64,000 nucleotides of DNA from Pseudisothecium myosuroides (taxonomy: Eukaryota; Streptophyta; Bryopsida; Hypnales; Lembophyllaceae): assembly GCA_951799445.1 (NCBI GenBank), contig OX637293.1, positions 6,510,001 through 6,574,000 on the forward strand. The letters run 5' to 3'. Each line of letters starts with the position of its first letter. Within the stretch, counting starts at the first letter, position 1. The position numbers and the translations under genes were made by a program. This document shows, piece by piece, positions 1,641 to 58,537 of the stretch. The notes below the pieces were generated by a model. The model did not search any database. It saw only the letters and a program-made list of their open reading frames with translations, and was not told the DNA's origin.

Positions 1641-1728
1641 TATCATTCAAGGATTAAAAAAAACATCTTCCTTGGAAATACGGTTTTCGAACAATATTTA
1701 TTGTCTCACTCTCTTTAAAGGGTGTAGA

Positions 1729-15559: not shown

Positions 15560-15950
15560 AGAAACCCCGGGTCGAGCCAGCCCAGCAAAAGCCAGCCCCA
15601 GCAAGAGCCAGCCCAAGCGGGAGTCAGCCCAAGCGGAGCCAGTCCCAGCAGGAGCAGCCCAAGCGGAGCAGCCCGGTACCCGTAGCCCGGTATCCGCAGC
15701 CGATACCCGCTCCGGTACCCGCAGCTGTACCCGCAGCTCGATATCCGCTCCGGTACCCGCAGCCATACCCGCAGCCCGATACGCGCTCCGATACCTGCAG
15801 CCCGTTCCCCGCAACCGTTCCCTGCAGCCCGTTCCCCGCAGCCCGTTCCCCGCAGCCGTTCCCCGCAGCCGATACCCGCGCCCGGTCCCGTGCGGCAGCT
15901 GCGCCTCCGGCAGTTCGTGTTGGTTTTTTTTTTGTTCCTTTTGATTCTCC
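15560..15950 (+). repeat. GC-rich degenerate short repeats (CCCGCAGCC type)
   Basis: Repeating words around CCCGCAGCC, GGTACCCGCAGC and GTTCCCCGCAGCC run in imperfect tandem. In two frames they read as proline/alanine/serine/arginine-rich strings, but no folded domain is visible. I regard it as low-complexity filler of the element, not a gene. A 50-bp unit (GGGAAATTAGGGTGGTAGAA) is duplicated just after it, at 15967-16064. Confidence 0.6.
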
Positions 15951-16810
15951 TTTTTAGGAAGACTAAATGGGGGAAGGAGGGGTAGAGTGAATGGGAAATT
16001 AGGGTGGTAGAAGTAGGGAAGAAAAGGGGTAGAATGAATGGGAAATTAGGGTGGTAGAAGTAGAGATATCTTCAAAATAGAAGGAGGGAAATTAGGAAAA
16101 AAGGATTCGAGGGTACGCTTTGTAGTAGGAATTATCATTAAAAGCACACAAAAACCTGCAAAAGCTCACACAATCACTCCACGCACAACTCACCCAAGCT
16201 CTCCACACACCATAACCAAAACCTTGAGTATCACAAGCAAGGAGGAAGATGAAATAGGAGACGGGGTGTGCTAGTAGATGGATTGGGGGAAATCTCAACT
16301 AATTAATCTGGACCACTAAAAGGGCAAGCGTAAGAGTAAAAAAGAGCGTGCCTTGGGCGTAAGAGAAAGGTCAATCGCGTAAGCACTTGGGAAGGGTAAA
16401 GATGTAAGAGGTGTAAGAACAAAGTCAACACGTAAGAACTTTGGAAGACAAGTTGGTTGGTGGAAAGAAGGAGAAGAAAGGAATTCCACCGCCTCTACCA
16501 CTTCGTTCTCAAATCTTCCCCGAGTCAAGAATCACTTAAGGAGCCGCAAATCCAAGAGGAAGAGACATGGCCGAGGGGGGGAACCTCGACCGGTTAATCC
16601 AAGACCTCCAAAATGAGGTGGGCCCCTAAACACCCCACTCTTCCATGTTTAATTTTGTTTTATCAAGATAATTAGAAGGAGGCCGAGAGCTAGGGTAGGA
16701 GAGAAGCAAAGTCAGGTTAGAATTAACTTTAAAATCTTATAGTAGAGGGCTAGGGGTTTCCGAAAACCTAAAACACGTCCGGATCCGAGCTAAAACGAAG
16801 GAGTTATGAG

Positions 16811-17458
16811 CGGATGAAGTTAGGGAGTCATGTTGGATGAAACCTAACAAATTTCATCCAAGAGGAACAAAAAAACTAACATAAAAAGAGGAATTAATTT
16901 AGGAACCAAAAGTCAAATTAGAATTTAGTTTTGAAATTAGGGTTAGCCCTAATTAGCGGATGAAGTTTGAAGAACCGATTAGCGGTCAAACTTCATCCAT
17001 GGATAACTTTTGATAGGAACATCCAAACCTAATGTGATTAGTCGAAGTAGAAAGCTAAAATCAGGATCTCCTCGGAACAAGTCTTAAGTTTCTAAGATTA
17101 GTACATTAGTAACCACACTTAGGATCCTTAAGTAAGATTAGAAGGCGGATTAGGAACGTTTAAGATTAAGGTTAGGATAAGTATAGATTTAGAACATTTT
17201 AGGACAAGTTTAGGGTAACCCAAAACTAAACCTAGCTTAAGGAAATACCTAAACCCCAAGCAGTTAAGAAGGGATGAAGTTTGGGACAAGTAATGGATGA
17301 ACCCTAGAAGATTTCATCCATTTGAGTCAAGACTTGGTAATTAGGTTAACATTAGGGGGTCAGGCCCATAGCCCAAATCCCAAGTCAATTCGAAATCCGG
17401 AGTCCATAGAAAAGCATGGATGAAGTTTGAGGGACCGAGTAGCGGTCAAACTTCATCC
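16811..17458 (+). repeat. Recurrent hairpins GGATGAAGTTTGA / TCAAACTTCATCC
   Basis: Four inverted pairs share the same stem word: 16811-16859 (imperfect), 16958-16998 (13-bp perfect arms), 17272-17318 (imperfect) and 17418-17458 (13-bp perfect arms, 15-base loop). The reversed relative at 48.2-49.7 kb keeps at least two (48556-48597 and 49008-49049). The conservation suggests they mattered to the element, for example as RNA structure. Confidence 0.7.
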
Positions 17459-17857
17459 GTCCATAACTCTCTCTAGGAAAGTCCAAATCAACCAAGCTTT
17501 ATACTTTTAGAAATGGCATGAGGTACTCTTCCATTTAGGATAGATAAGCTTAGACTAAGATCAACGCTTCTCCTAAACCACCAAGCCCTCTTAGGCTTTG
17601 ATTCAACCTTAGCAGTTATAGCAATTCCAATTAGGGTTTTGTTTTGTTTCTTCATTACCCAAAATTAGCGAGTCTTAGGAGTTTAGAAAAGATCCATTGC
17701 TTGGAAGGCACAATGGATTGGCGCTAGACACCCATAGATCGAGTCAGAACGGTTAAATACCGAGAGCCTGGTTGTGCTCGCTTCTTTACCAAGGGTGGGT
17801 AAACAAGCGCTCACAAAGCACCGAGCTATTTCCGGAATCCCCCCCCCCACCCCCAAT

Positions 17858-18603
17858 ATGAAGATCACAATTGGAACGCAAAACATTCAGGGGATTAACG
17901 ACCCTCTAAAGATGGAAATCGTTAGGAGTTACTACCGTCCTCTGTTAAGGGGAATAGAAGTATTGTGCATGCAGGAGCATCATCTGAGGGGTGCGAAATT
18001 GGACAAATTGGGGAGCCTCTTCTGGCCACAAGCCCGATTCTTGGGGAGAGAAGCGGCGGTCGGCTTTGGTCATGTTACAGGAGAGGATGGCGCTGGGAAA
18101 GGAGGGATATGTATGTGGATTGCCCCCCACATGGCCCACCGAATTATTAGCATGGGCCACTCACAATGTGAGAGGGCGCAGTGGGTCCGATTCAGGGGCC
18201 TTCAAGGGGGAGATATTTGGGTTCTCAATGTTTATACAGCTAATAGTGCCAGGCAAAGATGCGCTTTGTGGGAAGAGCTTCTCATTTCACTGCCAAGGGA
18301 CTGTCAATGGATCTTAAATCGGGATTGGAACTTTGTTGAACGACAAGAAGACAAATCCAACCTCAACGGGCGCATTATCTCGATTGGGGAGAGCAGAGTT
18401 TTTTCTCTTCTCATAAATGCGCTTGAAGTAGCCGACCAATTCCCTGACACTAGGAGATTGAAGTTTTCCTGGGACAATCGACGCCAAAGTGGTTTACGTT
18501 CCTTGCCCGCCTTGATCGTTGTTATGCCTTCCAACTCAGAGGAGCTGGCCCATCACCGATCACTGACTATTCCATCAGAGGGGACTGCAGCTTTTCCGAC
18601 CAC
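17858..18603 (+). pseudogene. LINE ORF2, AP-endonuclease domain, frameshifted
   Basis: The frame from the ATG at 17858 starts MKITIGTQNIQG, the usual LINE endonuclease opening, followed by QEHHL (metal-binding Glu region), LNRDWNFVE in place of the expected GDWN-type motif, and SWDNRR. Near 18490 a one-base shift moves the sense to the next frame, where ARLDRCYAF and FSDHLPI (the catalytic SDH motif) are read up to 18603. The nick-making endonuclease is therefore split, and the Gly before DWN is changed to Arg. Confidence 0.88.
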
Positions 18604-21600
18604 TTGCCAATCTTCCACACGATTCAGCTGACCCCTCAGCTGCTGGCAAAATCGTCCTACAAAATGAGCAATTTTTACCTCAGTGACCCGTTAGTAAAGG
18701 CAGAAGTTGCAAGGATATGGGATCAGAACCTGAGGCTGGAGTTCACTGGTAGATTGAGAAGAGTTACAAAATTCTACAGGATGTACTGCATCAAGAAGGC
18801 GAAAGAGAGGGAAGAAGAAGAATCTTCACTTAGGAAGAAGCTGGAAACTAAGCAAGAAGCTCTCCAAAGGGACCCACACAGCCACAATACTTAGTCAAGC
18901 ATGGGAGATACGATCGAGAAGCTGGCAAAATTCGAAAAACATGCAGTTGAAGGACAACGAATCAGAAGCAGAGTCAAATGGCTAAAGGTAGGGGATGCGG
19001 GCACAAAGGAGTTTTTTCAGGCTTCTAAAACCCACTCGGGAGCTTCCTACATCACAGAGCTACTGGACGAGAAAGGGAATCTTCATTCGGACCAAGCCAG
19101 CCTAGAAACAGCTTGCTCCAACTTTTACGGCAAGCTTTACGCAGAACAATCCCGGCCAAACGGTTACGAGGCAGCGGCCACCCTATCGCTGACTTGTGTA
19201 GGTGATCGATTATTGGACGCAATGAAATGAGCCCTTAGCCGACTGATCGAGATGAAAGAGTTGGATGAAGCAGTAAAGGGATTGGGCTGTGGTAAATCCC
19301 CTGGTCCAGATGGGATCACCTCGGAGTTTTACAAGAAGAACTAGGAAGTACTCAAGGAGGAGTATCATGTGATGGTTACCAAGGCTGTGGAGGCTAAGCA
19401 ACTCCCTCCAAGGGTAAATAAAGGACTCATTACCTTAATCCACAAAGGTGAAGCGCGGAATTGTTTGTCCAATTGGAGGCCAATCACGCTGCTAAACGTT
19501 GCATACAAGATTTTCGCCAAAGCCTTGCAGATTAGACTTCAGCCGGTCCTCATAAAAATAATCGATTCCGATCAATCGGCTTTCCTCCCTCTCAGGTTTA
19601 TCCTGGACAACATTCTCTTGACGCATGAAACAATAGTATGGGCTGATCACACCAAACAGCCACTGATTTTCTTAAAACTGGATTTTTCGAAAGCCTTTGA
19701 CACGGTGGACTGGAGATTCCTAGCCCGAGCAATGAAGGCCTTTGGCATCCCAAATGAGTTCATAGACATGTCCGCCATGCTGTTTAAGGATGCGGAAGCT
19801 TCCGTTAAGGTGAACGGCTGCCAGTCGCCACTCTTTCAGATCAGGAGGGGGGTAAGGCAGGGTTGCCCCCTTGCCCCATACTTATTTTTGATAGTTGCGG
19901 AGGTTCTCAATGCGATGGTCAAGACCGGAGTTGTGGCTGGGATAGTGAAGGGCATAAAACTCCCTGGAGGTGATAAACAGCAAACGCTGGCCTAATTTGC
20001 AGACGACTCATCACTTACGCTTCTTGGGGAAGAGGGACCAGCCAAAGACACAATTGCCTTGTTGGACCGGTTTTGTTTAGCCACTGGACTTATCCTCAAT
20101 TGGTTCAAATCAAGGGGCGACTAGAGTGCCAAGGGTATGGGAGGGCGCCCAGCTTGGGCTGAGTAGCTTAATATCATCTGGGTAAATGAAGATAGTGTGA
20201 GCAAACTGTTGGGCACCCCCTTCGGAATGGACATCTCTGCCCTCTCTGTCGACTCTTTCTTGCAGGAGCGAATACTCAAGAGCTTGCAGCATTGGTCCAT
20301 GGCCAAAGTCAACGCCACTGGAAGAGGGGTGGTGGTGAACAAGGTTCTATTATCATCCATCTTATATTTCGCATCAATTTGGGGAGGCACCCAAGCAGGG
20401 ATTAAACGAACCACGTCCTCAATACAGAACTATATGTGGTCAGGATCGCAGCATAGAGCTCGCACTAAGGTAGCTTGGCTGCAATGCTGCCAGACGAAGG
20501 AGAAGGGAGGAATAGACGTAATCAACCCCTAGGATGCTCTCACAGCTTTGATGACCAAATGGATACTTAAGGCCTATGAACCAGGCTATTCCAATTTACA
20601 TATCTTGTTGAGACATCGGCTGAGTAACTTCCAACCTTATCAAGGAGGAAGATGGGCCACCAGTCTGGAATTTTTCACTCTCCCGCACTTCCAAGCGATG
20701 AAGGGATCCACGGTCTGGAATAGAGTTGGCTCGGCCTGGAGGAAACTACGACATGAAGTCCTCCCAATCCGTCCCAAGCTCCCCAAAGAAGTTGCGATAG
20801 AATCTTTCTGGTGGTCCCCCTTCATGCCCATAATTGGGCCTGGCTTCTCAAAAGCAAGGGCCACGCAGCTGCACCGACGCGGATTAAAACAAATTCAAGA
20901 TGCGCAAGTGGAGGGCTGCTTTTTGACAGTCCCTGAAGCAGGAGCAAAATTCGGACTGAATGAAAATGAAGCAGGGGCGTGGCAAGCGGCAACTCAGGCA
21001 ATTCAAGCCCAATGGGGGCAACTGCTCACGCAGTCTCCTCCCTTTGCGGCACTCAAAGAATGGGTAGGGTGGTTCAAGGAAGGGAATGATGAAGCTCCCA
21101 GAATAGTGCTGCAAGCCTTGTCCAGGAACACGGCCCGAATTGGTAATCCGACAACACCTTGGCCCCCGGCTTGGAGTCAGAAAGGCTACTCTGTCCTCCT
21201 GACGGCCTGCATCCTCCAAGATAATGCAGACAACGGCGGAGCACCATGGAGCCTGGCCGTAACAGGCACCTTCTATAGAGTCAGAGTACAGGAGATTTGT
21301 TGTGGGCCGAAGAAAATCCCAGTGAGGCTTTATTACGGGAGGATCGACCAGCTGAAATGGGACCCAAGGAAATTTGAATGGAACGCGGACGATTTTAACA
21401 TCCCTCTAATGGGATTCACTGCGAGTTTAGGTCGAAATCTACTCAGACGAGGCCATAAGATCTCCAATCCGGTGGAGAGAAAATGGGGCGGTCTCCTTCC
21501 AGGCGACTTCAACTTAAGGTGGAAAACTGTATGGACTAAGGAGCGCATCCGGAAAGAAGCTGGCCTTCTCTGGCTCACTTGGCACAAGGCAGTGGCGGTT

Positions 21601-22125
21601 AATCACTGGAGGGGGAGGATCGACGACTCAATCGACATGAGGTGCCCAATCTGCCCAAGGCACTCAGAGGAAACAATCCTCCATCGGTTTTGGGAATGTC
21701 TCCCAGCCCGCATTGCCTGGCAATGGGGCATTCACATCCTTAACGCGAGACTGGAAGGGAGAGAAGCATGCGGGCCGTGGCGCCCGCTCACCTGGAGGCA
21801 AGGTATCTTCGCGGTGAGCATCCCCCGGAAATTCAACAGGATTAAGAGAATTTGACAGGAAATTCGCACGGTGGTCATGTGGACTTTGTGGATCTAAAGG
21901 AACGATATGGTTTTCAATAGCCAAGGATGGACGCCTGAGCGCTTGCTTCAACGAATCTGGGAAGGCCTCCTGGACTATGGGCGCTTGGAATGGACCAATG
22001 TCTGTGGGAAGAAAGCAAAAACTCCGGAAGATTGGCTCAGCCTGAGAGATATGTTTATCAGAAGACGCTGTCAGTGTGATTTCTTTGCGACCATGGAAGA
22101 AGGCCAACCCAAGTGGGCACCCTGA
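18604..22125 (+). pseudogene. LINE ORF2, reverse transcriptase and zf-RVT, with nine internal stops
   Basis: A single frame runs 3.5 kb without any frameshift and carries the whole RT: KSPGPDGITSEFY, LITLIHKG, NWRPITLLN, LDFSKAFDTVDW (first catalytic Asp), RRGVRQGCPLAPYLF, and FADD (catalytic Asp pair, directly after a stop). It then reads a GTPFG motif, the C-terminal zinc finger CPICPRHSEETILHRFWEC, and a WTLWI-RND tail. Internal stops are TAG 18892, TGA 19228, TAG 19342, TAA 19993, TAG 20122, TAG 20164, TAG 20530, TGA 21853 and TAA 21895. Context suggests Gln, Arg or Trp at each, all one transition away. The TGA at 22123 looks like the natural end. Confidence 0.93.
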
Positions 22126-23306: not shown

Positions 23307-23436
23307 CCTGGTTGGGTCAGTTGATCGCACGCAAGCATTCGCTTGGTGGGTTTAGCTATCACTTGCAGGATTGTTGCTGCTTTTTAGGTTTTAGAATTTT
23401 GTAATAGTTTTCTTAATTTTTTGTTAACGAGTAGCC

Positions 23437-24123
23437 ATGATGCGAATGGCGAGCTTCGGCAAGTCCAAGAGAATCGAGACATCTAAGTCGATGGATGCCA
23501 CTTCCGGCATCTCCGCTCGGAAGTTAGAAAAGACGCGTTCTGAATCCCTAAAAAAGAGCCCGAACTTCATTACTCGTCTCACGAGCATGGGAAGCTTGAA
23601 GTCCTCTAAGAAAACCTCTGGAAGCTTGAAATCTTCCAAGTCTGATGTTCGCGTGCAAGCTCAGCGAGCACCTGCTCCCTCGGCTCAAACCGTGATCCAC
23701 AACTGCGAAGTCTCCGAGCTCGAGATGGCGTTCAAGGTGTTCGACGCCAACGGCGACGGCCAGATCTGCATCTCGGAGCTCGGCGCCGTGCTGCGGTCTC
23801 TTGGTGGGGATGTGACCGAACAGGAGCTTCATGAGATTATGAACGATGTGGACAAGAATCAGGACGGGTTCATCTGTTTGGAGGAGTTCAAGGATGTGCA
23901 CAATGTGGTGGGAGAGGATCCTATTCGGGAGGCGTTTGCTACGTTTGATAAGGATGGGAATAATTTGATTTGCGCTGACGAGCTTCGAACGGTGTTGATG
24001 AGCTTGGGCGAGAAGGGACATTCGCTGGAGGATTGCAGGAGGATGATCAAGTCGGTGGATCAAGATGGCGATGGCTTTGTGGATTTCAAGGAGTTTCAGA
24101 ACTTGCTGAGCGTTAAGAGTTAA
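23437..24123 (+). CDS. Calmodulin-like EF-hand calcium-binding protein (CML type)
   Basis: A 228-residue calcium sensor of the plant CML group. The start at 23437 (ATGATG) is the first ATG after the tandem repeats. Residues 1-90 form a basic, Ser/Lys-rich extension with an internal repeat (GSLKSSK at 52-58 and 62-68) and no predicted fold. Four EF-hand loops follow: 103-114 (DANGDGQICISE), 139-150 (DKNQDGFICLEE), 171-182 (DKDGNNLICADE) and 208-219 (DQDGDGFVDFKE). Loops 1, 2 and 4 have canonical D/N at positions 1, 3 and 5, Gly at 6 and Glu at 12. Loop 3 has Asn in place of the position-6 Gly, so its affinity may be lower. The position-9 Cys in loops 1-3 is unusual. Family members act as Ca2+ relays binding target proteins in cytosol or nucleus; partners are unknown here. 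Intronless and intact. Coding GC is much higher than the surrounding DNA. Confidence 0.93.
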   Translation: MMRMASFGKSKRIETSKSMDATSGISARKLEKTRSESLKKSPNFITRLTSMGSLKSSKKTSGSLKSSKSDVRVQAQRAPAPSAQTVIHNCEVSELEMAFKVFDANGDGQICISELGAVLRSLGGDVTEQELHEIMNDVDKNQDGFICLEEFKDVHNVVGEDPIREAFATFDKDGNNLICADELRTVLMSLGEKGHSLEDCRRMIKSVDQDGDGFVDFKEFQNLLSVKS

Positions 24124-27758: not shown

Positions 27759-29874
27759 GCATGGTTTGCAATGTCACATTACAATTTTTGTCTTTGAGCT
27801 TGCTTTTAAAGGGCTCAACTTTTGCCTTCCAAAGTCTTTCAAATCCATATTTTCTTGTCTTTAACGTGTGAGATTTTCAATGTTGTTCCAATGACAATAA
27901 TCTCAAGTTCTAATTTCACACCAATTAAATGATAATAATAATACATTTGGTGAGTCATTTTCAAAGTTGGATTGATGGTCTCAATAGCATACTTGCTATG
28001 AAAAACAACTTTGGGAGGTTGTAACATGCCTTCACAATGTCATACTCTACTATTTGTAGTGGGATTGCATTGCACAAATCCAGGCAATTAATGTATGTCT
28101 CAATAATAATTCTAACGCTTATGGACCCCGTGAGTTTAGATCTTATACAAACATTACTTTGGATAAATGAGAAGCTAACACAACAAAACATCACCTAGAA
28201 TGTGAACTTTGAGACGACTAATACATTGTACAAATGTAAGATAAAATGTGCAAAAATTCAGAAAAGGATTTGGGCGTTGATAAAAGTGTTAAATCTCCCC
28301 TTCAGATCACGTCACTTAATGAGCAAACATTATAATCGAGGTTCGTATCAATCCATGAGCGATTTCCCTCATTTCTATTCAGAGAAAAGAAAACAATACA
28401 TTGATGAATTCTCTACTAATCTCACCAACTGCATTACACATTTGATGAACCAATGGGACCATTCAATTTCAGGGGTTAAATGTTCTGTGCAGAGTGCAGA
28501 AGCGATGCAAGCTAGAGAAACGGCAACAGAGCGGTTACCTCATTGATGCTACTTCTTGGCGAGTGCATGAACCGTTCAACTGCAACAACAAAAGTAACTT
28601 CTATTATGTAACGTGCAAGCAATTTCATAATTAACAGGAGTGGGGGGAAATCGTTGAAAATCGCTTCTTCTTTTGATGAGAATTGTTCAATTTGATGAGC
28701 GTCAGACGTTGTCTGTAGATCATGGTAACTCAGTGGACATGGAATTGAAGCCTCCTCTCACTGTCGCTGCATTGATTTTCACTGCAAGTCATTTGATCTA
28801 AAACCAACGAAATTAAACGTGAGCTTTAGTTTGACAGTGTTGCAATTCAGGAAATTAATGGAAAGTCAACACTGTGCAGTTGCAACCATATCGCAGGTTG
28901 TTTAAGAAATTAACTTACGTACTGACACGAAGAACCGGAGTCTTCAAGGGAATCAGAAATTATATACCAATTAGGACTTTCCAGCTACAGAAGTTATGAA
29001 CATGTTCGGAAGTATACAGTACCGCATTCAGCATCAGTATCTCCAAAATTAGCATTGGTTTTCGTTGCACACCGAGTCTTCATGCTGTTGCAGAAACAAG
29101 TCGGGATTACTGTGAAGCTTGAAAATCTCACTGATGGTGGATTCTCTCTCACTTGTGAAAACAAGATATACTGTTGTGCGAACTTGGGGTGGGCAGTACC
29201 TGAACGGAATACAGCGCCTGAACGGTATTTGATTCTCTGCTTTAGTTTTCCCTGAAACATAGAACAAAAACGTCAGTACTTGTTCTATGTAAAGTTGGAC
29301 ATACTCTTTGGTGCTACAATTTGTTGCAAGGAACATATGATACCTAAAGCGATAATTACATAGAAAAAGGTCTGTTGTTCCACACATAGAATAAAATCCA
29401 TTGCATACAAGAACCCCGACCAGCAAGATCACGAAGAAGACAGAATTCTAATCAGGCAGACCCGAAAAAAGACACGAGCCCTCACCTTGCAGGGTAGATA
29501 TATGCACATTCTACTAGCTTGTATTTCTGTGTATCGAGATGAGGGCGTGCTTGCAAGTCCTTTACCTCTGAGTGTTTCAATCCTCTATCAATTCTGCTCT
29601 GTAACGATGCCACTATGCTCCGCAGAGTCGTGTTTTGTAGCTGAAGATAATCTAACACGGCTTTGTAGTATGCGGTTCATCACAAGACCTTGCATTCCTG
29701 CAGCATGACAGAAGAAGAATTGAAGATCTATATTGCACCTCTCATTCCGCGTTCAAAGTCATGTAATCCGAGCAATTGAGAATTGCCAAAGAAGGAGAAG
29801 GGGCTTCAAGCTGTAGGTCTTCAACCAGAAGCTTGAAATTCCAGCAGCAGCATCTCCACCTTGAAAATTGCGTC
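27759..29874. promoter_or_regulatory. Intergenic and upstream region of the NXPE-like gene
   Basis: Mostly AT-rich. No exon or element was recognised with confidence. A frame at about 28202-28546 has no similarity I know and no good ATG context. The last 150 bases before the ATG of the NXPE-like gene are less AT-rich and may be leader. Confidence 0.35.
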
Positions 29875-31497
29875 ATGAAACCTGCAGGAGGATGGCAGTG
29901 GGCACGCGTGACAGGATCATTTGTGATTGCAGCTTCCGTAATCCTGGCGATGACAATAGTTCTCTTCTCGACTCATCAGATGACAACAGTGGGAGTACCC
30001 AATGCATGGTTGCCTCAACTGCTTGGCAGCCCCATTGAATATCCATCGCTACCGTTTTACAACATCACAGGCCAAATCCTGGAGGAGATGGAACGAAACG
30101 GTACAGGGCTCTGTTGGAAGCAAAACACGAACACCACGAAGGTGCTCGGTTTCCCAGAAAATGTCGAGATTCTCACGCTCTCCACAGACGTAGTGCACAA
30201 GTTTTGGCTGCAATCTTACACGAAAACAGGAGAGCGTCGATGTGCAGGCGGGGATTACTACGAACTCGACCTGTCGAGCACATTGTGGAAGTCACGTCCA
30301 CCAAGTCAAGATCTGCAGAACGGCACTTACGCAGTGGAACTCATGGTTCCAGAAGTTTATGCCGGCGATTACAACTTCTCCGTCTTCCTCCTCTTCGACG
30401 CGTATCACGGCTTGGATTACAATGGCGAGGCGTGGAGTATCAAGGAGCTCACTGCTTCTCTCCGCATCAAATTTGTCACAAATTCTGTCAATGACACTTC
30501 CATGACTAACCCTAATCTCCAAACCCTAAAGCCATGCGAATTGGGCGATTTCCAACACCACGAATGGTCAGGACGCTGGTCTCGTTCTTTAGAAAACGAC
30601 TCATGTAATCCAAACACTGAAGGACGATACCCACATTGCTTCTCCGAGAACATCCCTTGCAGAAACCCTAGTTGGTGTTCAGGCAAAATTGAAACCCTAG
30701 AAAGCCTCGGCTGGTCCTACTCCGCACACTGCACGTTCAAAATCTTTCAGCCAAATGAAGCTTGGGACTGTCTTGCTGGACGCTGGCTCTTCTTCTGGGG
30801 AGACTCGAACCACCAAGACACCATCCGCAACCTCTTAACGTTCATTCTCCAAATCAGTCCTCCTCCAGGCCGGGACTTGCTGCACTTCGCAATTGATCGC
30901 AGCTATCAAAACTGGTTCCGCAATCCTGAGAATCTCGATCAAGAAGTTCGAATCTCAAGTCATTACAATGGACATCCCATGGTGGACGCCAATGGCATTG
31001 GGCTCGCGAGTTTAGAAGATTTCAACTACAGAAACTACATCACCGAATTCTTTGCTGGAAAAAGCTATCCAGACACTGTGATAATGAATTCGGGGTTGCA
31101 CGATGGCTGGTACCAGCAAAATGTAGCGAGTTATGTGAAAACGGTGGAAATGGCGATGAAATATTGGAGGAATCTGTTTGGAAATTTAACCGAGGCCCCG
31201 CCGGAGATTGTGTACAGAACGACAGTTGTGCCGGCGGGAGAGTCACGAGGGATGCAGTCGAATGCGCAGAAGATGGAAATTTTCAATAGGATCGTGACGG
31301 AGCAAGTGCAGACGGTGTTTCCGAAGGTGAAAGTGGTGGACGCGTTTGATATGAGTTTTCCGTTTCATTATGATAATAAGTATAGCGATGGAGGACACTA
31401 TGGGAGAGCGCCGGACGGGGAACGCCCGCATTTCTACTTTGTGGATGTCATGCTTGCGCATGTTCTGCTCAATGCTATCTGTCCAACCAAGAACTGA
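29875..31497 (+). CDS. NXPE/PC-esterase-like membrane-anchored protein
   Basis: 540 residues from the ATG at 29875, the first ATG in a frame that is open upstream to 29776. Residues 12-31 are a hydrophobic segment after a short Trp/Arg-containing N terminus, so the protein is probably a type II membrane protein of the secretory pathway or Golgi. Residues about 60-205 resemble the NXPE N-terminal immunoglobulin/filamin-like region (GGDYYELDLS, then QNGTYAVELMVPEVYAGDYN). Residues about 220-540 are the PC-esterase/GDSL-like C-terminal domain. The nucleophile motif is WGDS (Ser 311) and the partner is SDGGHYG (Asp 505, His 508), the GDS...DxxH arrangement of TBL-type and NXPE C-terminal domains. 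Plant TBL relatives O-acetylate cell-wall polymers; the substrate here is unknown. Many Cys and NxS/T sites fit a lumenal location. Intact and intronless. Confidence 0.85.
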   Translation: MKPAGGWQWARVTGSFVIAASVILAMTIVLFSTHQMTTVGVPNAWLPQLLGSPIEYPSLPFYNITGQILEEMERNGTGLCWKQNTNTTKVLGFPENVEILTLSTDVVHKFWLQSYTKTGERRCAGGDYYELDLSSTLWKSRPPSQDLQNGTYAVELMVPEVYAGDYNFSVFLLFDAYHGLDYNGEAWSIKELTASLRIKFVTNSVNDTSMTNPNLQTLKPCELGDFQHHEWSGRWSRSLENDSCNPNTEGRYPHCFSENIPCRNPSWCSGKIETLESLGWSYSAHCTFKIFQPNEAWDCLAGRWLFFWGDSNHQDTIRNLLTFILQISPPPGRDLLHFAIDRSYQNWFRNPENLDQEVRISSHYNGHPMVDANGIGLASLEDFNYRNYITEFFAGKSYPDTVIMNSGLHDGWYQQNVASYVKTVEMAMKYWRNLFGNLTEAPPEIVYRTTVVPAGESRGMQSNAQKMEIFNRIVTEQVQTVFPKVKVVDAFDMSFPFHYDNKYSDGGHYGRAPDGERPHFYFVDVMLAHVLLNAICPTKN

Positions 31498-45150: not shown

Positions 45151-45546
45151 TTGAGCACTCATTCCTGCGTGAATGAAATATTGGATTGTATAATTCTTTG
45201 AACGGACACTGAGTTTTATGTCAACCTTCTTTTGTTAGTCTATGCCCATTGACAAACGTATCAACACTTAGATACCACCAAAAAATCTACCAGCTAACAA
45301 ACAAGTGTGGAATCTTCCATTGCTAGGCATGACATCTGTTGCTTGTATACTAAGATATATATTTCCAATCTTCAGTGTCAAATTAACCTAGATGTACCAA
45401 AATGTAACCATCAATTCAAAAGCATATTAGATAATAGTCACATCTAAACAAAGGATGACCCATGGTACACCTACCTTGCAAGATTGCATCCCAAGTATGA
45501 TAATCACGGCCTGAACAACCTCTTGTAGAATCTCCCTTGCTCCAAG

Positions 45547-45966
45547 GTAGTAATCATCAACACACTCTAACTTTGAGCCTAAGGTATCTCAAGCATTTCT
45601 GAAGTTCGATACTAGAGTCTTTAGAATGTAATCTAAGGTTGTCACCTCCACTTCTTCCAATTGATACTCACATAATTGTCACATTGGTAGTAATCATCAA
45701 CACACTCTAACTTTGAGTCTAAAGTATCCCAAGCATTTCTGAAGTTTGATACTAGAGTCTTCAAAATGTAATCTAAGGTTGTCACCTCCACTTTTTCCAA
45801 TTGATAATCACATAATTGTCACATTGGTAGTAATCATCAACACACTCTAACTTTGAGTCTAAAGTATCCCAAGCATTTATGAAGTTTGATACTAGAGTCT
45901 TCAAAATGTATTTTATTGTTGTCACCTCCACTTCCTCCAATTGATATTCACATTATTGTCACATTG
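45547..45966 (-). repeat. Three tandem 140-bp copies of a gamma-COP exon segment
   Basis: Units start at 45547, 45687 and 45827 with very few differences. Each contains one version of the exon part read as YQLEEVEVTTLDYILKTLVS and NFRNA. 140 is not a multiple of three, so the array would break the frame even without stops. The copies are much more alike to each other than the pseudogene is to a working gene, so the amplification came after inactivation. Confidence 0.9.
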
Positions 45967-49759: not shown

Positions 49760-49948
49760 CACTACAAGAGAAAGGGGTGTTTTAAGTAGTGTCCTAGACA
49801 TCACGTCTTTTAAGTAAGTTTTAAAGTAAAATTTTACTAAAAAGACAATCTTTTTAGTAAAATTTTACTTAAAAACTTACTTAAAAGACGTTACTTAAAA
49901 GACGTGATGTCTAGGACACTACTTAGAACACCCTTTTCTCTTGTAGTG
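49760..49948 (+). mobile_element. CACTA-type MITE with long inverted repeats
   Basis: 189 bp, almost wholly two inverted arms starting CACTACAAGAGAAA. TTT is duplicated at 49757-49759 and 49949-49951, the 3-bp duplication typical of CACTA elements. It sits exactly where the readable part of the gypsy element begins. Confidence 0.9.
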
Positions 49949-49949
49949 T

Positions 49950-50765
49950 TTACAAGCAGAGTTTGACAGCAATTTGACTTCAAGTGGAGAAACTGTTGGC
50001 AATGGTATTGAAGTTGCTACAAGCTATTTGGCAACATTACTTGCTCGAGCAACTCGTGAGCGCTTGCAAGTCAAACCTAGAGTAGTACGATTGGCCAATT
50101 CTGGTTATGTTTTTTCTGTAGCTTGAGGTGATGCATCTCAAGTGTTTCCACAGAAAGTATTACTTGATATTGGTGCTCAACTAGTTATGCTAGGAAAACT
50201 TCTAGCTCAGAGCTTGGAGCTTCTTTCTAGTGACTTGGATCCATGTCCTTTTACTATAGCAACATCGCTTGGGGGCACGGAGCAGCCTATGGGGATGACA
50301 AAGGAGCCACTACGACTTCGGTTCAAGGTGGGCACTAATGCGTACACTCACATCTCCTTGAGGTGTGTTGTAACAGGTGCTACGAGCTATGATATTTTGT
50401 TGGGGCAACAAGCTTTATACCCCATTGGTTTTGGTCATGATTCTTGGACTGAGGAAGCGTGGTTTAGACCGGGGTGGTCACAAGGAGACGGGCGGAAAGA
50501 AGTGATTCCTGTCAGTTTTGGTGCTTCTGTTGGTGTGGTTGAAGGCTTGGCGGCAGTGTATGGATGTGTTGCAGAATGATTTACGACTGGAGATTTGCTG
50601 CTTGAGGGAAATATGTCTGCTGTAGATGCACCTCCAGAGTTTGATTTGCAAACACAAGGCGAAATCAAGTCGTTTGTAAATCATCCCAAAGATCCCATAC
50701 CACCATGGATTTCACCAAAGGATTTGGCTGAGAAATGCCATACATTGGTAGAGGGAATAGACTAG
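49950..50765 (+). pseudogene. Gypsy aspartic protease region, broken by stops
   Basis: The retropepsin that would cut the polyprotein. The active-site strand reads VLLDIGAQLVMLG (from about 50160), where the common D-T/S-G is D-I-G. The late motif YDILLGQQALYP (about 50388) corresponds to the usual hydrophobic-x-ILG strand near the C terminus of the protease. Coding sense continues upstream to the MITE at 49948 and downstream as a linker (SPKDLAEKC and so on). In-frame stops are TGA 50124, TGA 50577 and TAG 50763. Confidence 0.8.
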
Positions 50766-52229
50766 CATCTATGGCGGCCGCAATCTACTCTGCCAGCTTT
50801 ACAACAACTTGTGGATCTTCATGATGATCCAGCAGGTATAGTTCTTGTGGAACTTTTTGCTAGACTTGGTACTGGTTTAGCTGCAGTTTTGGAGGCGGGG
50901 TTGTCCATACAGAGTTATACGTATGTGGACAACAATATTGTGGTGAGCAGAGCTGCAAAACACCATTTGGACCAGCTAAGGATGCGATACCCAAAGCAAC
51001 TACTTGTCAATGCTATTCAAGGGTGTATGTCTCGAATTCCTTCAGACATTGCTTTGATTGGAGAAGAAGATCTTCTGAGGTTGGGCAAAGTGGACCTTGT
51101 GATGGCTGGATGGCCTTGCTAAGGGCATTCCCGGGCAGGTCCTCGCCAAGGACTCCAAGACCCACGCTCAAGTTTATTTGGGGAGCTCTTGCGGTTGTTG
51201 CATTGGTGGCAACTTAGACAAGCCACAAGTGTGGCTTATATTCTTGAAAATGTGCCTCCATTAGGAGATGTTGGAGCTCGAATTCACGAGGATGCCAAGG
51301 TGGTATGTCAACACCTTGGAGAGCCAATTGTAGTAGATGCTGCAGCTCTTGGTTCTTATGCCCATCGTTTACGGTGGAAGTGGACCAATTTGGCTCATAT
51401 GCCAGGGGTTTCAGCAGCATTACATTGCATCCATCGTCCAAAGGGCAGACACCTTGATGACATCTTAGAAGACGGACGATCTGCCCAAGCAGTGGTGCAA
51501 GAAGATCAGACACCATTGGCTATAGTCAATCGTGTAGGGATGCCTCGATTAGCATTTCCTACTTTGATGAGTTATCCTCGGTCTTTTGCTTTTCGCAGTG
51601 GCGGACCGGGCTTGGTGTTTGACAACACCTCTATGAGATTGGAGGAACCATGTGCTACTAAGCGGGAGCGAGCTATGGATTTTCCTACCAATACTACTAA
51701 TGGGCCTGGATTGACAGAGTCTCAGAGGCGCAACTGCCTTGGACAAGCCATGGACCTCACATCTATGGTTTGGTTTGTTGGAGTATGTTTAGCAGCTCAA
51801 CAGCACAAGAGGCATGGCCTTGAAGGCCATCTGGGGGCAGATGCTTTAGGCCAGGGGGCAAAGAGTGTTGTGCCTCTAGTGGTTGAAAAGATGGCTACTC
51901 CAGATGACAAGGCATGGAGTGATAGTCAGCAAGCTTGGGGCCAAGTACTTGAGAAGAGAAGAGCCCAATATGCTGAGGAGTGGCTTATAGCAGATGACTT
52001 ACGAAGACAACGTGTTCTGGCAGCATTGGCTCAAGACTTGGGTATAGAAGATGCTAAAGAGAAGTTTAAAACCGTATTTCTCACTAAAAAAAATCCATAC
52101 ATCATCACATCACCTCACTCTACAAGTGGTATGATTTATGATACAAGTGGAGATGGTTTAGTTGGAATGAAAGAGGGTGAAAATGCATCTATTGTCTTAA
52201 ACAAGGACAATGGTGCAAACTCTTCCAAC
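50766..52229 (+). pseudogene. Cytosine-5 DNA methyltransferase domain within the gypsy polyprotein
   Basis: About 488 codons between protease and RT. Visible C5-methyltransferase motifs in conventional order are: motif I VELFARLGTGLAAVLEAG (about 50847, S-adenosylmethionine binding); motif IV DLVMAGWPC-stop-GHSRAG, with the catalytic Cys at 51117-51119 and TAA (51120) where the usual Gln of PCQGxS would be; motif VI AYILENVPP (ENV at 51246-51254); motif VIII-like YAHRLRWKW (51357-51383); then a variable target-recognition-like region and PGLTESQRRNCLGQAMDL (about 51700-51760), matching motifs IX/X. The order is not permuted as in plant DRM enzymes. The single stop at 51120 is one C-to-T change from CAA. 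About 140 residues after motif X look like a linker and have no domain I know. Expected activity when intact: 5-methylation of cytosine in DNA. Confidence 0.88.
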
Positions 52230-52232
52230 TAG

Positions 52233-53278
52233 CAACCAAAGGTAATGCCAACACCACTAAAAGGGTCTCAAAAGAAAGAAGTAATCTTGCCAATTGATAA
52301 TGATTGGGAGATGGATATTGGTATGGGACTCACTGGTGCAGAGGCAAGAAAGGTGCGAGCATTCATTCGCTCGTATAGGGCTTGCTTTGCTTTTAAACTC
52401 ACTGATTTGGAGGGTTATAAAGACAAGCCTGTGAGAATTCAACTGGAAGATGATCATCTAGTGTTTAGACGCCCGTATAGGCTCAGCCTTTCAGAAAGAG
52501 ACGGGGTCATGTTGAGGTGTAAAGAACTTTTGGACGCCGGATTGGTAGAACTCTTAGATGGAGAGTATGCATGTACCACGGTGATGCCAGCAAAGAAAGA
52601 TATTCTTGGAAACTGGACGGAAAAGCGGATGTGTGGAGATTACCGTCCTGTTAATAAGAAAACAAAATCAGATCGATATCCCATGCCAACATCTGAGGAA
52701 TTATTTGATGCGGTTGGAAAAGCAAAAGTCTTTAGTACTTTAGACTTAAGGTCAGGGTACCATCAACTGCCATTGAGACTGGAAGATAGGGTGAAGACGA
52801 CATTTTGGGGAGTAGATGAAGATGGAAGAGATATGCTTTTCCATTGGAAGTTCTTACCTTTTGGCTTGAAGAATGCTCCGGCAGAGTTCCAACGTGTTAT
52901 GGATCAAGTTTTGAAGGGGTTACCATTTGCTCGGTGTTATATAGATGATGTAATTATCTTTAGTAATACACCAGAAGAGCATGTACAACACTTGCAGCAA
53001 GTCTTTGAGAGGCTGCAAACTTGGGGTCTTTGCCTACATTATGGGAAGTGTAAATTCTTTCATGATCAACTGCCTTACTTGAGACATATGATTACACCAG
53101 GAGGCTTAGGAGTACAACAGACGAAGGTGGAAGCTTTGAAGAGGATTCCAATTCCAAAAGATGTATCAAGGTTGAGAGACTTTTTGGGACTAGCAAACTA
53201 TTATCGACGGTTTGTTTGTGGTTTTAGTCTCTTGGCCAAACCTTTGACCCGATTAACAAGGATTGATCAAGAATGGAT
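52233..53278 (+). pseudogene. Gypsy reverse transcriptase, cut by the CACTA insertion
   Basis: Intact Ty3-type RT motifs: PYRLSLSERDGV, KRMCGDYRPVNKKT, FSTLDLRSGYHQLPL (first catalytic Asp), FLPFGLKNAPAEFQRVMDQ, CYIDDVIIFS (catalytic YIDD at 52938-52949), and LRDFLGLANYYRRF in the connection. The stop at 52230-52232 (TAG) separates it from the methyltransferase, and the CACTA element enters at 53278. No other defect was seen in this piece. Confidence 0.92.
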
Positions 53279-55942
53279 CACTACAAAAAAACAAGGATAT
53301 AAATGACTGCGATAAATGACAGTTTTGCAGTCATTCCGGACATAATTGACTCCGCTGCGACTTCAGGCCCTGCAGTCATAATGGACAAGTCATTCTTTAA
53401 ATGACTGCAACTCTAATATCACCAACGAATGGGGCCTTGGATGAAGAACGGATGGGAGGGTCTACGTGGCATTCAGGTTTGGAGACAAAATTTTCTAAAA
53501 AAGCCGGGCAGTTGCCCATTTTTTGAAAAATTTGGCCGATTGTTGCTGACGTGGACCTTTGCGTGAGTCATTCTACAGTCATTCTGCAGTCGTGAGGGAG
53601 TTGTATCGACCAATGCGGGGCTGACACATGTCCAATCATTTATTGCAGTTTTATCTTCAACGGACGAATGACGCTTTGACACGTGTCCAGTCATTCTGCA
53701 GTCATTTGTAGGATGTACTTTTAAGATTGTCTAGTCATTTTTAAGTGACGCATGTAGTTGTTCTGAAGTGACATAGATTTAGGGTTTAGGGTACTTTCCA
53801 AGGACAGGGAAAATCATTTTTTGGAAACATTTTTAATTTGCGGCGATGCATTGTGTACAAAAAGGAATATAATGACAAATAGAAGGGAACTAGTCATTCT
53901 ACAATCACATATGGATACATTCAAAGTTCCATAGAAATACACCATACACAATATACCAAATACAATACACCATATATAATATACCAAATACAATACATCA
54001 TATATACAATATGCCATATACATTATACAATACACCGTACAACATACACCATACTTTATATTTTGCATGACTCGCATGGCTTAGTGTGTAAGTATGAACA
54101 GATGAAATAACAAGCCTTTTATAGAAGTGGGGTAGTAGTAGGCAAGACAAACCATGTGGGATATTGAAAATGCAGGAATTGTGTTACAAATAATATTTTA
54201 GACCTTATCGAGGTATAGTAGATTAATTTTTTCCAAAAAAATTTGAACTAATAAAAGTTAGAAAATCAATCCTACTTTCATCTCCAAAAATCCATTTTAC
54301 ATTTTGAGCCTCAAATCAAAAGTTATAGACAAATTTGCTAAATGGATTGAAAATGATTGGCACATGAAGAATATTAGGGATTTAGGGTCACCTATTTGAC
54401 TTCCCCAAAACATAGACATATATAGTTGTTCTAGGACTCCTCACTTCATGCAAGGAAAGTATGATGATGACTACCCATGATGTCAATAGTCCTCCAGAAT
54501 TGTTGAATGTAGAGTATGTGGGAATGCCAGGTTGAGTGTCCAGTTGCTAATAGTGTAGAAGTCATTTGTTAGTCATTTTTGAGTCGTTTACGCAATACAA
54601 TCCTTCACCGCGACTTTTAAATGACTATGACGAAGTCATATTGAAGTCACATGAGTGTAGGGTACAAAGTAGCATTCAAAGAGTCCCCTAAAAGTACTGT
54701 AATGTTTGTGAGCCTTGTCCTCCTTGTCCCTGGAGTTGCTTACAATCAACGGAGTAGATGCATCTAGGAAGTAAACCATGGAGGAGTGGTAGACGCCATT
54801 GAATTATCGGCAAAGGAGAACCTATTAGTATAGGAGGAATATTAGGGTTCATTGTGGGAATTGTTTTCAATAGGTGCTGCTGTAGATGCTCGGGGTGCCC
54901 TTAATAAGTGTAAGAACATAGCAATGGTCAAAAAATGCATGATAAACGTGATTCTAATAGGGAGATCCAATAGTTCTACATTTGGAAATGAGGATAACAA
55001 GAAATCAGTAGCCCATCACTTCTAGATTATTATAAGTAGTTAACTAGCAGTCATTTGCTAAGACACAAAGGACATCTTTATTAATACTACTGTAGAGATT
55101 GCAAGGGTGACCGCTCCTCAATGGATGCTTATTACAGCGGAGGTAGTTAATTTAGTTGGGACTATCAAATTGTCAGTGGAAGAGAACTTATCAACTCAAG
55201 AAGGATATGAAGTTGTCATTGCTGTAGTATTAGAGGCTAAGAATTAGAGTAGTGACCACATTGTAATTTATTAATTTGCAAGAAGTCCTTGCAGAGTTGC
55301 TTGCAATCATTTTCCAGTGACAACGTAGAGGTGGCGCAGTTGCGATATACGCGACCCCACACGTCAGAATTGTCTCAGCAGTTCAATGTCCAAAATTGTA
55401 TCAGTTGGTGTAGTCATTTTGTAGTATGGAACGACTCCTATTGATTTTGCAATTGTAGTGCGGTGTGGTGTATTGGGTTAGAATGGCTTTGTATAAATTG
55501 AAAGTTTTCCATTTCTTTTCCCAGCTTGTAAAATTTGAAGGACTACCTACCCGTGTTAGTACGGGTAGAGGTCCAAACCGTGAAACTAACTAGGGTCTCT
55601 AAAGGAGTTGTGCCAGTCATTCAATAGTCATTCTTGAGTCGTTCAAAAGTGAAGCTTAGTTAAATTTATGACAGAAAAATGACTCAAAAATGACTTTGCC
55701 GGCCACGTTGGATTTATCCCTTTTCCCGCCAATAAATTGACGACGCAGTGAACGAGAACATCGCTCCTGCGACCTTTTTCTGTCAACTGTTCATCCCATA
55801 GTCGCCGTGCCGACTCCAAAATGATTGGGGACGGATTTTGGTTCCAGAGATGGTGCAATTAGAGAATTGCAGTCATTTTCTAGTGAAACCGGACATGCAG
55901 TCATTCCTCTGCAGTCACGAAAGTACCCATTTTCTTGTAGTG
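53279..55942 (+). mobile_element. Non-autonomous CACTA (En/Spm-type) transposon inside the gypsy pol gene
   Basis: It begins CACTACAAAAAAA and ends TTTTCTTGTAGTG, with GAT duplicated on both sides (53276-53278 and 55943-55945). 2,664 bp. Both subterminal regions are packed with TGCAGTCATT-like words in both orientations (53300-53770 and 55270-55920), as in CACTA elements that bind their transposase there. The middle has a tract of ATACACCATA-type short repeats (53935-54060) and no transposase gene. The segment 53990-54180 recurs in related form at about 59880-60070. Confidence 0.93.
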
Positions 55943-55945
55943 GAT

Positions 55946-56627
55946 GTGGGGTCCTGATCAAGAGAAAACATTTGAGGCTTTGAAAGGAGCACTTGGTTCT
56001 GCTTTAGTGTTGAGGAGGCCTGATGCTTGACGGCCTTTCCAACTCCATACAGATTGGAGTATGTTGGGGATTGGAGCCGTATTGACTCAGAAAGATGATG
56101 ATGGCAAGGAATATGTCATTGTATATGCTTCACGAAGCAATAATGATGCTGAGGCCAAATATTCATCTTATAAAGGAGAGTGCTTAGCAGTGGTGTGGGC
56201 AGTTGCACATTTCCGCCCATACCTTTATGGCCAGATCTTTACACTTGTGACTGATCATCAACCTCTAAAATGGTTGATGGAGTCTGATAAACTCACGGGA
56301 AAGCTTGCTAGATGGGCCTTACTACTACAAGAGTATGATTTTGACATAGTTCACAAGGCGGGGGTCCAAAACTTGGATGCTGATGGCTTGAGTCGTAATC
56401 CAAGCCCGTTAGAGGAGGTTTTGACTAGTGCTCGATGGCATGGCACATGTGATCAAGAAGCAGTGCCAGGGTGGCATGTTTCATCTTATTTGGCATGGAT
56501 GGAGGGGAGATCCAACCAAGACTTAGGAGAGACTGGATTGGATGTTGTTGATGAAGACTTGGATGAAAGTGGACCTCAAGTTACCACTGATGTATGGAAA
56601 GACCAAGGTGTTCTATATTGTCTTTAA
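55946..56627 (+). pseudogene. Gypsy RNase H domain
   Basis: Resumes in the same frame after the CACTA insertion: EKTFEALKGAL (RT/RH connection), then LHTDWSMLGIGAVLTQ with the first catalytic Asp (56052-56054), KYSSYKGECLAVVWAV (Glu), and TDHQPLKWLM (Asp), ending near the VQNLDADGLSRNP motif that closes Ty3-type RNase H. Stops: TGA 56028 (ex-Arg by context) and TAA 56625 (ex-Gln). Confidence 0.9.
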
Positions 56628-57857
56628 CATGGGGAGTTTCTACCATATACCACATCTCAAGAAAGAGACCGAGTAGCCCATCGCTTGGCTAGATTTCATT
56701 GGGAAGGTGGCCTTATATTTTGTAGATGGCCGGATGGAACAAGGAGGGTTGTTCCGAGGCCTGACCAACGTCTTCAATTGATATGTCAAATTCATGAAGA
56801 GTTGGGTCATTTTGGAGTGCGTCGTACATATTCCATGTTACGTGGTTTATATTGGTGGATGGGCATGCGACAAGAGGTAGCAACCTATGTGGGGAGGTGT
56901 GAAGTCTGTGATCAGGTTAGATCAAGCTTCAACACTCTAACTCCCCAATTACGACCTTTACCAATCATGGGTTTGGGTTATAGGTGGAGTCTTGATTTTG
57001 CTGGACCATTGACGACCACATCACGAAGTGCTAAATATGTACTTGTGATGGTAGAACATTTTAGCAAGTGGATTGAGTTGGTAGCACTGCCACAAAATTC
57101 CTCGGAGTTAGCAGCAGCGGCATTCCTCGATCATGTGTTGGCTAGATTTGGAGCTCCAGCTGAAGTATTGACAGACCAAGGAAGAGAGTTTCTTGGGGCA
57201 TTTGAAGAGCTTTGCACTAAAGCTCTAATTGACCACCGTACAACTTCAAAAAATCATCCAGAGGCTGATGGATTAGCATAGAGGGTGGTTCAGACAGTCA
57301 AGCGTGGTTTGCGCAAGTATGGATTGTTGGCAGGCAATCACAAAGATTGGGATTTGAAGTTGCCATGGATAGCGATGGGTTATCGCTTCAGTCGACAGGC
57401 ATCTCTTACATCTTATAGACCTTATCAGCTGTTGTATGGCAGAGAGCCAATGTTACCGTCGGCGGTGAGGGAGAAATTGGATCCAGTAGTAGACTTGGAT
57501 GATCCAAAAATTTGAGCGGAGGTACTATAAGATCGAGCTGAGTATTTTCAGAGGGCCATGCCAATGGCTATGGAGAATTTGGCAATAGCGCAACACAGAG
57601 ATACTCTTAGATATGCGCACATTAGAAGTGGGGCTTATAGGCCTCAACTTCGACAATTCAAGATTGGAGATTACGTGTATTTACAACGTGAGGCACCCAC
57701 AACCTTGGATGTTCGGGCAGGACGGACCATTTTAAGGGTCAAGGGACTTTTGCCTAGTGGAGTTCTTCTTTTGGAAAGGAAAGATGGACAAGAGTGCAGG
57801 GACAACACAAAGAATTGCGCTCTTTGTCATTTACCAATTGAAGGGACTGTGGATCCA
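56628..57857 (+). pseudogene. Gypsy integrase, catalytic Glu codon replaced by a stop
   Basis: The N-terminal zinc-binding HHCC is HEELGHFGV ... CEVC (about 56790-56912). In the core, the first Asp is in SLDFAGP (about 56990) and the second in LTDQGREFLG (about 57170). The third residue of the DDE triad should be the Glu of a GLAER-type motif; codon 57279-57281 is TAG there (GLA-stop-RVVQ). A Glu (GAG) to TAG change is a transversion, unlike the other stops. The C-terminal region has GDYVYLQREAP and LRVKGLLPSGVLLLERKDG, the usual GPY/F-like DNA-binding tail. Further stops: TGA 57513, TAA 57528. Confidence 0.9.
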
Positions 57858-58031
57858 TAGTTGGCAGTAGTTCCACCTGGATACAAATGTTTTGTATGTG
57901 GAGAAAGCAAGGGTGTTGCAATGATGTTGGTATGTGATTCGTGTCAACGAGGTTGGCATATGGCATGTCTTCGACCGCCATTGACTTCTCTTCCTGTTGG
58001 ACATTGGACATGTCCTCGTTGTAGAAGATGA
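57858..58031 (+). pseudogene. C-terminal PHD finger of the gypsy polyprotein
   Basis: After a single in-frame TAG (57858) the frame reads a full C4HC3 PHD finger and ends at a TGA (58029-58031). Zinc ligands are Cys 57888, 57897, 57933 and 57942, His 57957, and Cys 57966, 58011 and 58020. Spacing is C-x2-C-x11-C-x2-C-x4-H-x2-C-x14-C-x2-C, with the typical Trp two residues before the last Cys pair. The short motifs are YKCFVCGE, CDSCQRGWHMAC and WTCPRC. PHD fingers often bind the histone H3 N-terminal tail. At this place, chromoviruses carry a chromodomain; by analogy it may have guided integration to marked chromatin. Confidence 0.9.
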
Positions 58032-58370
58032 TCAATTGGTACTACTTCTTCAAGTGGTTGCTGATGATTTTTCTTATCAACAGAGGATGCAGTCACTTGG
58101 TGATATTTTATGTTGGAGTATGAATGGTGGTTCTTGATATTGAAGCTTGGATGAAGATTTTGTGGAGTCCAACTATGACGTTGGAAGCGATTAAGGATGG
58201 GACTCAATTGCACCCAGCTTACCCCTTCATTTATAATTGATTCAAGACTCCAAATAGATGGAGGCCTATCAACTATCTTCTTCAACATGTTGATTGTATA
58301 GTGAGTGTAGTTGAAGTTATTTCCTTTAACTTCTGTTGCTAGCTGAGTTGCGAGGGCGCTTTACTCAGCT

Positions 58371-58537
58371 AGGGGGACAATTGGATGGTTGTTCATTCAT
58401 GCCTTGTTGTTGTGTGGATTTGCTTTTAAGCATGTGTGCATGTTCTAGTGCTTGTAGTTTACGACATCTCTTGTAAATGATGTAGAGTGACACGACACAA
58501 TCTTCCTGCATTAATACAAAGGAACTTCAGCATTACA
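58371..58537 (+). repeat. Polypurine tract and possible short 3' LTR
   Basis: AGGGGGACAA at 58371-58380 is a good polypurine tract. From 58382 the sequence begins TGGATGG and could end with ATTACA at 58537, giving a 156-bp LTR. No 5' copy exists in this window to confirm it. Confidence 0.4.

Follow-up and report, generated by a model that had tools for sequence, protein, structure and literature searches.

A gypsy-type element with a methyltransferase and a PHD finger

A 64,000-nucleotide stretch of the genome of the moss Pseudisothecium myosuroides (contig OX637293.1; hereafter the window) contains, at 49953–58497, a decayed Ty3/gypsy-type element that encodes a protease, a DNMT3-type cytosine-5 (C5) methyltransferase (DNMT), a reverse transcriptase (RT), RNase H, a DDE integrase and a C-terminal C4HC3 PHD finger. 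On the forward strand, a remnant of the gag–protease spacer (49953–50123), upstream of which no gag was found, is followed by an aspartic protease with an altered active-site triad (50127–50576), whose Pfam match is weak (PF13650, 0.0068, under the cut-off) and which is 62–74% identical to its relatives. The end of the first open reading frame (ORF1; 50766–52229) comprises the DNMT, with its core at about 50835–51800, and a C-terminal tail; with an X put at one stop this piece matched DNA_methylase above the Pfam cut-off (PF00145, 2.4e-8; DNMT3A/B best), whereas without the X it reached only 0.25. A conserved TAG stop and the CAACCA after it (52230–52238), a readthrough-type context of the form CARYYA, mark the ORF1/ORF2 boundary by sequence comparison. 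ORF2 then encodes an RT with the YIDD motif (52491–53278; RVT_1, 1.2e-30), RNase H (56031–56450; RT_RNaseH, 2.2e-38), an integrase with an H2C2 zinc domain (8.8e-18), a DDE core (rve, 1.7e-14) and a C-terminal beta barrel (56628–57857; the C-terminal part from the AlphaFold model of a counterpart in the relative L001) and, at its C terminus, the PHD finger (57861–58028; PF00628, 9.7e-12), closed by a stop at 58029. A polypurine tract, AGGGGGACA (58371–58379), similar to the one preceding repeat B in the genome copies described below, leads into terminal repeat B (58380–58497), which ends CACGACA and lacks the A2 and second B after it. The Pol order protease–RT–RNase H–DDE integrase, with gypsy-type domains, is that of Ty3/gypsy (Metaviridae). 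An earlier reading of the window from its letters alone (the sequence-only reading) had proposed a gypsy element with both a C5-methyltransferase and a PHD finger, and the Pfam matches of both domains confirm it.

All domains share a single phase, as that reading had said, but the frame is not open: it holds 12 in-frame stops as far as 58029, of which 52230 is kept in relatives and 58029 lies directly 3′ of the PHD finger. The idea that every stop arose by C-to-T decay proved wrong for some of them, and for the conserved 52230. The link between RT and RNase H is interrupted by a nested 2,664-bp CACTA-type insert (53279–55942), not part of the element, with the target-site duplication (TSD) GAT on both sides (53276–53278 and 55943–55945); the flanks, joined, continue in frame. 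The window copy is 5′-truncated: homology to ORF1 of L001 begins at 49962, beside a palindromic 189-bp insert resembling a CACTA-type miniature inverted-repeat transposable element (49760–49948; TSD TTT/TTT), likewise no part of the element. The extent first given, 49949–58537, needs correction at the 3′ end, which lies at 58497. Compared with relatives, this copy has changes in both the protease triad and motif I of the methyltransferase and is thus very probably dead.

A multi-copy family in the moss genome

Searching the moss genome (387,930,709 bases in 222 contigs) yielded at least 62 protease–DNMT matches (62 of 189 candidates scored), at least 45 matches to pol (with 44 of 1,371 candidates scored) and 114 DNA_methylase matches, a set that must also contain genes of the host or of contaminants. 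The identity of pol to P0029 forms three groups, 81–89, 75–77 and 61–65%. Thirty-five of the 45 pol matches start no more than 36 residues from the query start, and after removal of an apparent duplicate 34 were retrieved; 20 were read at length except for the middle part of ORF2, and the other 14 around the stop only. The sequence-only reading had named copies devoid of the two domains as evidence against itself; in the copies read at length the DNMT was present in 20 of 20, and so was the PHD finger.

Comparison of the DNMT between subfamilies I and III gave a proportion of synonymous differences (pS) of 0.77, which is saturated, against 0.40 for nonsynonymous ones (pN), and a ratio of nonsynonymous to synonymous substitution (dN/dS) of about 0.14 in 4 of 20 pairs, the others being saturated. 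These values indicate that purifying selection acted on the DNMT as the families diverged. For comparisons with subfamily II the dN/dS cannot be relied on, two of its three rows (L029 and L033) being out of phase.

Copies of the element stand exactly 73,138 bp apart in two places (contig C49, 527243 and 600381; contig C217, 223711 and 296849), a spacing that would suit a long unit repeated in tandem or duplicated. Of the DNA_methylase matches, the four strongest (C180:15582–16742, C110:28666 and 69430, and C81:16268) may be contamination or other genes; one of them spans the whole domain without stops (1.6e-41), and the two C110 sets are 40,764 bp apart.

Split terminal repeats and target-site duplications

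The genome copies do not carry two identical long terminal repeats (LTRs), one per end, by which Ty3/gypsy elements are otherwise recognized. The proposed search for copies with LTRs did find many copies, but their repeats run A-coding-B-A-B: repeat A, which starts TGTCA, stands at the 5′ end before ORF1, and B-A-B, its B and A usually separated by GC, follows the polypurine tract at the 3′ end. An initial view of the polypurine tract as the start of an ordinary LTR was replaced by this split-repeat reading of the copies. The repeat pair is 95–100% alike in 13 of 20 copies, among them L030 with a B pair at 78.7%, and none was found within the stretches read in the other 7. The second B is almost absent in L024 and L025, and in subfamily III B-A-B is present with A1 not found within the stretch read. 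The 13 copies with near-identical repeats are therefore young, and the proposal that a land-plant lineage carries a DNMT-bearing gypsy element with a PHD finger holds for a multi-copy family that includes young members.

The outer ends are TG...CA, and 4-bp TSDs flank all 8 scorable copies of the 20 (7 insertions, as two copies share flanks). Both features agree with the DDE integrase that the element encodes, not with a tyrosine recombinase; because of them, the DDE integrase very probably inserts the copies. The element also departs from DIRS elements, marked by a tyrosine recombinase and no TSD, in having an rve DDE integrase and TSDs. For the route by which reverse transcription leads to a split-repeat molecule, our guess is a circular form that is cut where B, GC and A meet.

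A conserved stop codon separates the two domains

The DNMT (in ORF1) and the PHD finger (in ORF2) stand on opposite sides of a conserved in-frame stop. The boundary reads TAG CAA TCA in L001 and TAG CAA CCA in the window, and a stop was present there in 34 of 34 genome copies (TAG in 31, TAA in 3), L064 being out of phase through an indel. CARYYA follows it in 32 of the 34 as CAACCA, CAATCA or CAACTA, and L038 and L065 have CAACGA; in the window coding part CARYYA occurs at 5 of 1,802 codon positions, the boundary one counted. Among relatives of the DNMT piece, 13 of 25 proteins end at this boundary. A conserved UAG CARYYA between in-phase ORFs is the sequence signature of type I stop-codon readthrough. 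Tobamoviruses share this arrangement of UAG and CAR YYA between two in-phase ORFs; CAR YYA after UAG is reported to be essential for amber readthrough in tobacco mosaic virus, whose context gave 32% readthrough in one plant assay (PMC2754532). The moss case differs in being deduced from sequence and in lying in a retrotransposon. Because the stop and CARYYA are conserved between the two domains, we predict that the DNMT would be made at the Gag level and the PHD finger only in a rarer readthrough product. The two domains had been described as parts of one mobile polyprotein; in the moss copies the leaky-type stop between them means that they do not lie in an ordinary one.

Relatives and domain arrangements

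L001 is a 9,285-base contig, apparently misfiled in a cyanobacterial metagenome-assembled genome (MAG), whose ends overlap by 127 identical bases; it therefore reads as a 9,158-bp circle. It is intact, with ORF1 encoding Gag (zinc knuckles, by eye), protease and DNMT, and ORF2, in the same phase, encoding RT, RNase H, integrase and PHD finger. No primer site of the initiator-methionine tRNA (tRNA-iMet) type, taken as a 12-mer, was found in L001 with fewer than 4 mismatches.

The DNMT piece retrieved 25 relatives, some with a protease in the same protein, and an integrase–PHD query gave 280 matches, of which the best 120 were scanned for domains. A PHD finger was found in 119 of these 120, a count biased upwards by its presence in the query, and a DNMT in the same ORF in 58; many of the rows are fragments. 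The pairing of a methylation writer with a chromatin reader is thus not peculiar to this genome. Of the 58, 4 have the DNMT before RT, 34 have it between RNase H and the integrase end, and 20 do not show RT and RNase H; these orders rest on the C-terminal part of the integrase. Among the matches listed, the sources include environmental DNA and volvocine algae (Pleodorina and two Volvox species), with a DNMT in 2 of 3 annotated volvocine proteins (Pleodorina and Volvox), and two relatives come from EukProt, one of them named as an assembled transcript. Scans of viral contigs found no relatives of the element.

An RT tree (69 rows) separated the two DNMT arrangements with a Shimodaira–Hasegawa approximate likelihood ratio test (SH-aLRT) support of 98, and a DNMT tree (63 rows) united all enzymes with the DNMT before RT (support 95); mean identity between the two DNMT groups is 36%, a pattern compatible with either one capture of the DNMT or two. 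Both trees were quick and built without host enzymes as outgroup, the RT tree also without outside gypsy or copia rows. Three MAG contigs, L003, L004 and L005, carry PHD-bearing gypsy elements without a DNMT that fall inside the second group (support 80–84), a placement that looks as if the DNMT had been lost. After the PHD finger these three contain a further stretch, similar among them.

Nature of the methyltransferase and the PHD finger

In profile comparison the DNMT matched DNMT3A best (4.8e-18), in three stretches that follow in order and are unrearranged, unlike DRM; far behind, DRM2 (about 1e-7) and also HhaI (about 4e-7) cover no more than a part of it. The model of the L001 enzyme had a predicted local distance difference test (pLDDT) score of 74 and a predicted template modelling (pTM) score of 0.73, and all 50 of its listed fold matches are DNMT3 entries. 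By profile and predicted fold, the family methyltransferase is of DNMT3 type.

The model of the L001 integrase end with the PHD finger had a pLDDT of 85 and a pTM of 0.49. Its fold matches include single PHD fingers whose entries name unmodified H3 (BAZ2A, UHRF1) or H3 (ATXR5), as well as ORC1b and BHC80, the last of which we take to be a reader of H3 unmethylated at K4 (H3K4me0). The C4HC3 zinc pattern is kept in 118 of 124 family PHD fingers, and among 125 rows position 26 is Asp (D26) in 114, the residue before the ligand His is Trp or Tyr in 116, and position 31 is Gly (G31) in 120; at this last position, we assume, readers of K4me3 use an aromatic residue. Our prediction from these residues and the model is that the PHD finger would bind H3 tails without modification at K4.

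Other features of the window

A 576-residue gene at 29767–31494 is 64% identical to a Ceratodon purpureus protein, 47% to one from Marchantia and 43% to one from a lycophyte, with three further matches at 75–77%; this single gene points to a moss as the most likely host. Host-like genes encode an F-box protein (1591–3030) and an EF-hand, calmodulin-like protein (23428–24123), and 29767–31497 gave a weak NXPE match. Remains of a long interspersed nuclear element (LINE) at 11248–21855 comprise endonuclease and zf-RVT pieces (Pfam) and an RT recognized by eye, and a 140-bp unit is repeated three times in tandem at 45546–45965 (90–100% alike).

Discussion

Chromoviruses are gypsy elements with a chromodomain at the integrase C terminus. 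The moss element resembles them in bearing a chromatin-reader type domain at that place and differs in that a PHD finger replaces the chromodomain; Pfam scans of the element gave no chromodomain match. In architecture and description, though not by sequence comparison, its closest counterpart is KnitGypsy-Dnmt3 of the alga Klebsormidium nitens, described in PMC5890265 as having gypsy-type domains and an unrearranged DNMT3-type enzyme under purifying selection and, by the legend of Fig. 4c, the A-coding-B-A-B arrangement. No K. nitens sequence was recognized among the listed relatives. Besides its moss host, our element differs in having its DNMT in the Gag-Pro ORF, before a leaky-type stop, where theirs is in the Pol ORF; in its C-terminal PHD finger ('PHD' and 'zinc finger' are absent from the main text of PMC5890265); and in the 4-bp TSDs shown for it. 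SymbioDIRS-Dnmt3 of dinoflagellates, as presented in the same paper, also places a DNMT3 domain beside RT within A-coding-B-A-B repeats but has a tyrosine recombinase, in contrast to the DDE integrase and 4-bp TSDs of the moss element (PMC5890265). A literature search, with most subscription journals outside it, found no paper on a PHD finger in a DNMT-bearing gypsy element, nor on such an element in a moss. What is new here is that DNMT and PHD finger are split by a conserved leaky-type stop, and that split repeats occur together with 4-bp TSDs.

We consider it likely that the window holds a dead, 5′-truncated copy of a multi-copy moss family with a packaged Gag-level DNMT, a Pol made by readthrough and PHD-steered integration. 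Most ribosomes would halt at the boundary stop and release Gag-Pro-DNMT, such that the methyltransferase, made in Gag amounts and packaged in the particle, could methylate the cDNA or new copies. A minority would read through into the Pol part, with its PHD-bearing integrase, and the PHD finger, predicted to recognize the H3 tail unmodified at K4, would steer integration off H3K4me3-marked promoters. Copies methylated and quietly placed in this way would hurt the host little and persist.

Several observations weigh against this account. The window copy itself is inactive, and we infer enzyme activity, histone binding and targeting from sequence. In four relatives (P0035, P0045, P0129 and P0144) a single ORF with no intervening stop runs from the DNMT into RT, so control by a leaky stop is not universal, and in the moss the leaky position is TAA in 3 of 34 copies, with further stops beside it in some. 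Motif IV of the enzyme, usually PCQ, reads ECQ with the cysteine kept in 23 of the 63 family DNMTs aligned; by DNMT place, ECQ occurs in 15 of the 33 that follow RNase H, in none of the 5 that precede RT and in 8 of 25 with the order unseen. KnitGypsy-Dnmt3 showed no activity in yeast, a result that De Mendoza and colleagues called inconclusive (PMC5890265). For the PHD model, the best E-values belong to multi-domain PHF1 chains at low TM-score (multi-domain UHRF1 chains also score low), and some of the single-PHD fold matches read other marks. CpG depletion, which in the same paper backed self-methylation for SymbioLINE-Dnmt in 2018 (PMC5890265), was tried as a sign of self-methylation and dropped: the observed/expected ratio is 0.40–0.51 in the window element against 0.33–0.63 in five other window stretches, and 0.73–0.84 in the L001 ORFs against 0.91 in the noncoding part of L001, with no clear depletion in either.

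The same lack of clear CpG depletion would suit a DNMT that acts on others, whether it methylates host DNA or competing elements or shields incoming cDNA from a host nuclease, as would the predicted Gag-level amount of enzyme, which exceeds what cDNA alone may need. Klebsormidium, however, carries such elements and still resembles land plants in its methylation patterns (PMC5890265), and we regard action on others as unlikely. It is about equally improbable that the PHD finger reads no histone and simply gives the integrase a structural or DNA-contacting terminus. A reader role is assigned by homology, and a PHD finger in a retroelement could have drifted, but the zinc pattern, D26, G31 and the Trp or Tyr before the ligand His are conserved at the counts given above, and the folds match H3-tail readers. 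Were the boundary stop a true end, ORF2 would be expressed through reinitiation, an internal start or splicing; we infer readthrough from the motif only, and the four stop-free relatives join DNMT and RT in one ORF. The phase, however, is the same on both sides except in L064, the stop (34 of 34) and CARYYA (32) persist across three subfamilies, the variation in those 32 copies is confined to C or T at the Y positions, and L001 has the same motif, all of which makes a true end very unlikely. The single decayed copy in view in the window might have been an assembly chimera or a chance insertion of unrelated sequence. The protease–DNMT (at least 62) and pol (at least 45) matches over many contigs, with both domains in every copy read at length, refute this and leave it practically no probability; an 83-bp stretch (77%) common to the nested CACTA-type insert and the flanking DNA at 59972 also argues against a chimera.

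Beyond the account of a packaged DNMT, readthrough Pol and PHD-steered integration, we put forward a wider one, rather doubtful as it stands. A green-lineage family, found in volvocine algae and moss and perhaps as old as their split, would share A-coding-B-A-B repeats with tyrosine-recombinase elements yet use a DDE integrase that cuts the B-GC-A junction of a circle, of which the circular 9,158-bp L001 could be an example. Its Gag-level DNMT3-type enzyme would methylate the cDNA before integration, the integrase PHD finger would choose H3K4-unmodified chromatin, and the leaky stop would dose writer and reader apart. Such a family would be a mobile counterpart of the logic of host DNMT3-ADD.

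Together, these results suggest that mobile DNA of this kind, described so far from algae, lives in land plants too and may direct the state of its own chromatin. A methylation writer and a predicted histone reader are joined in this family in two architectures, and the moss copies have a programmed-looking stop between them. Why a parasite carries an enzyme that silences parasites is now testable with ordinary data.

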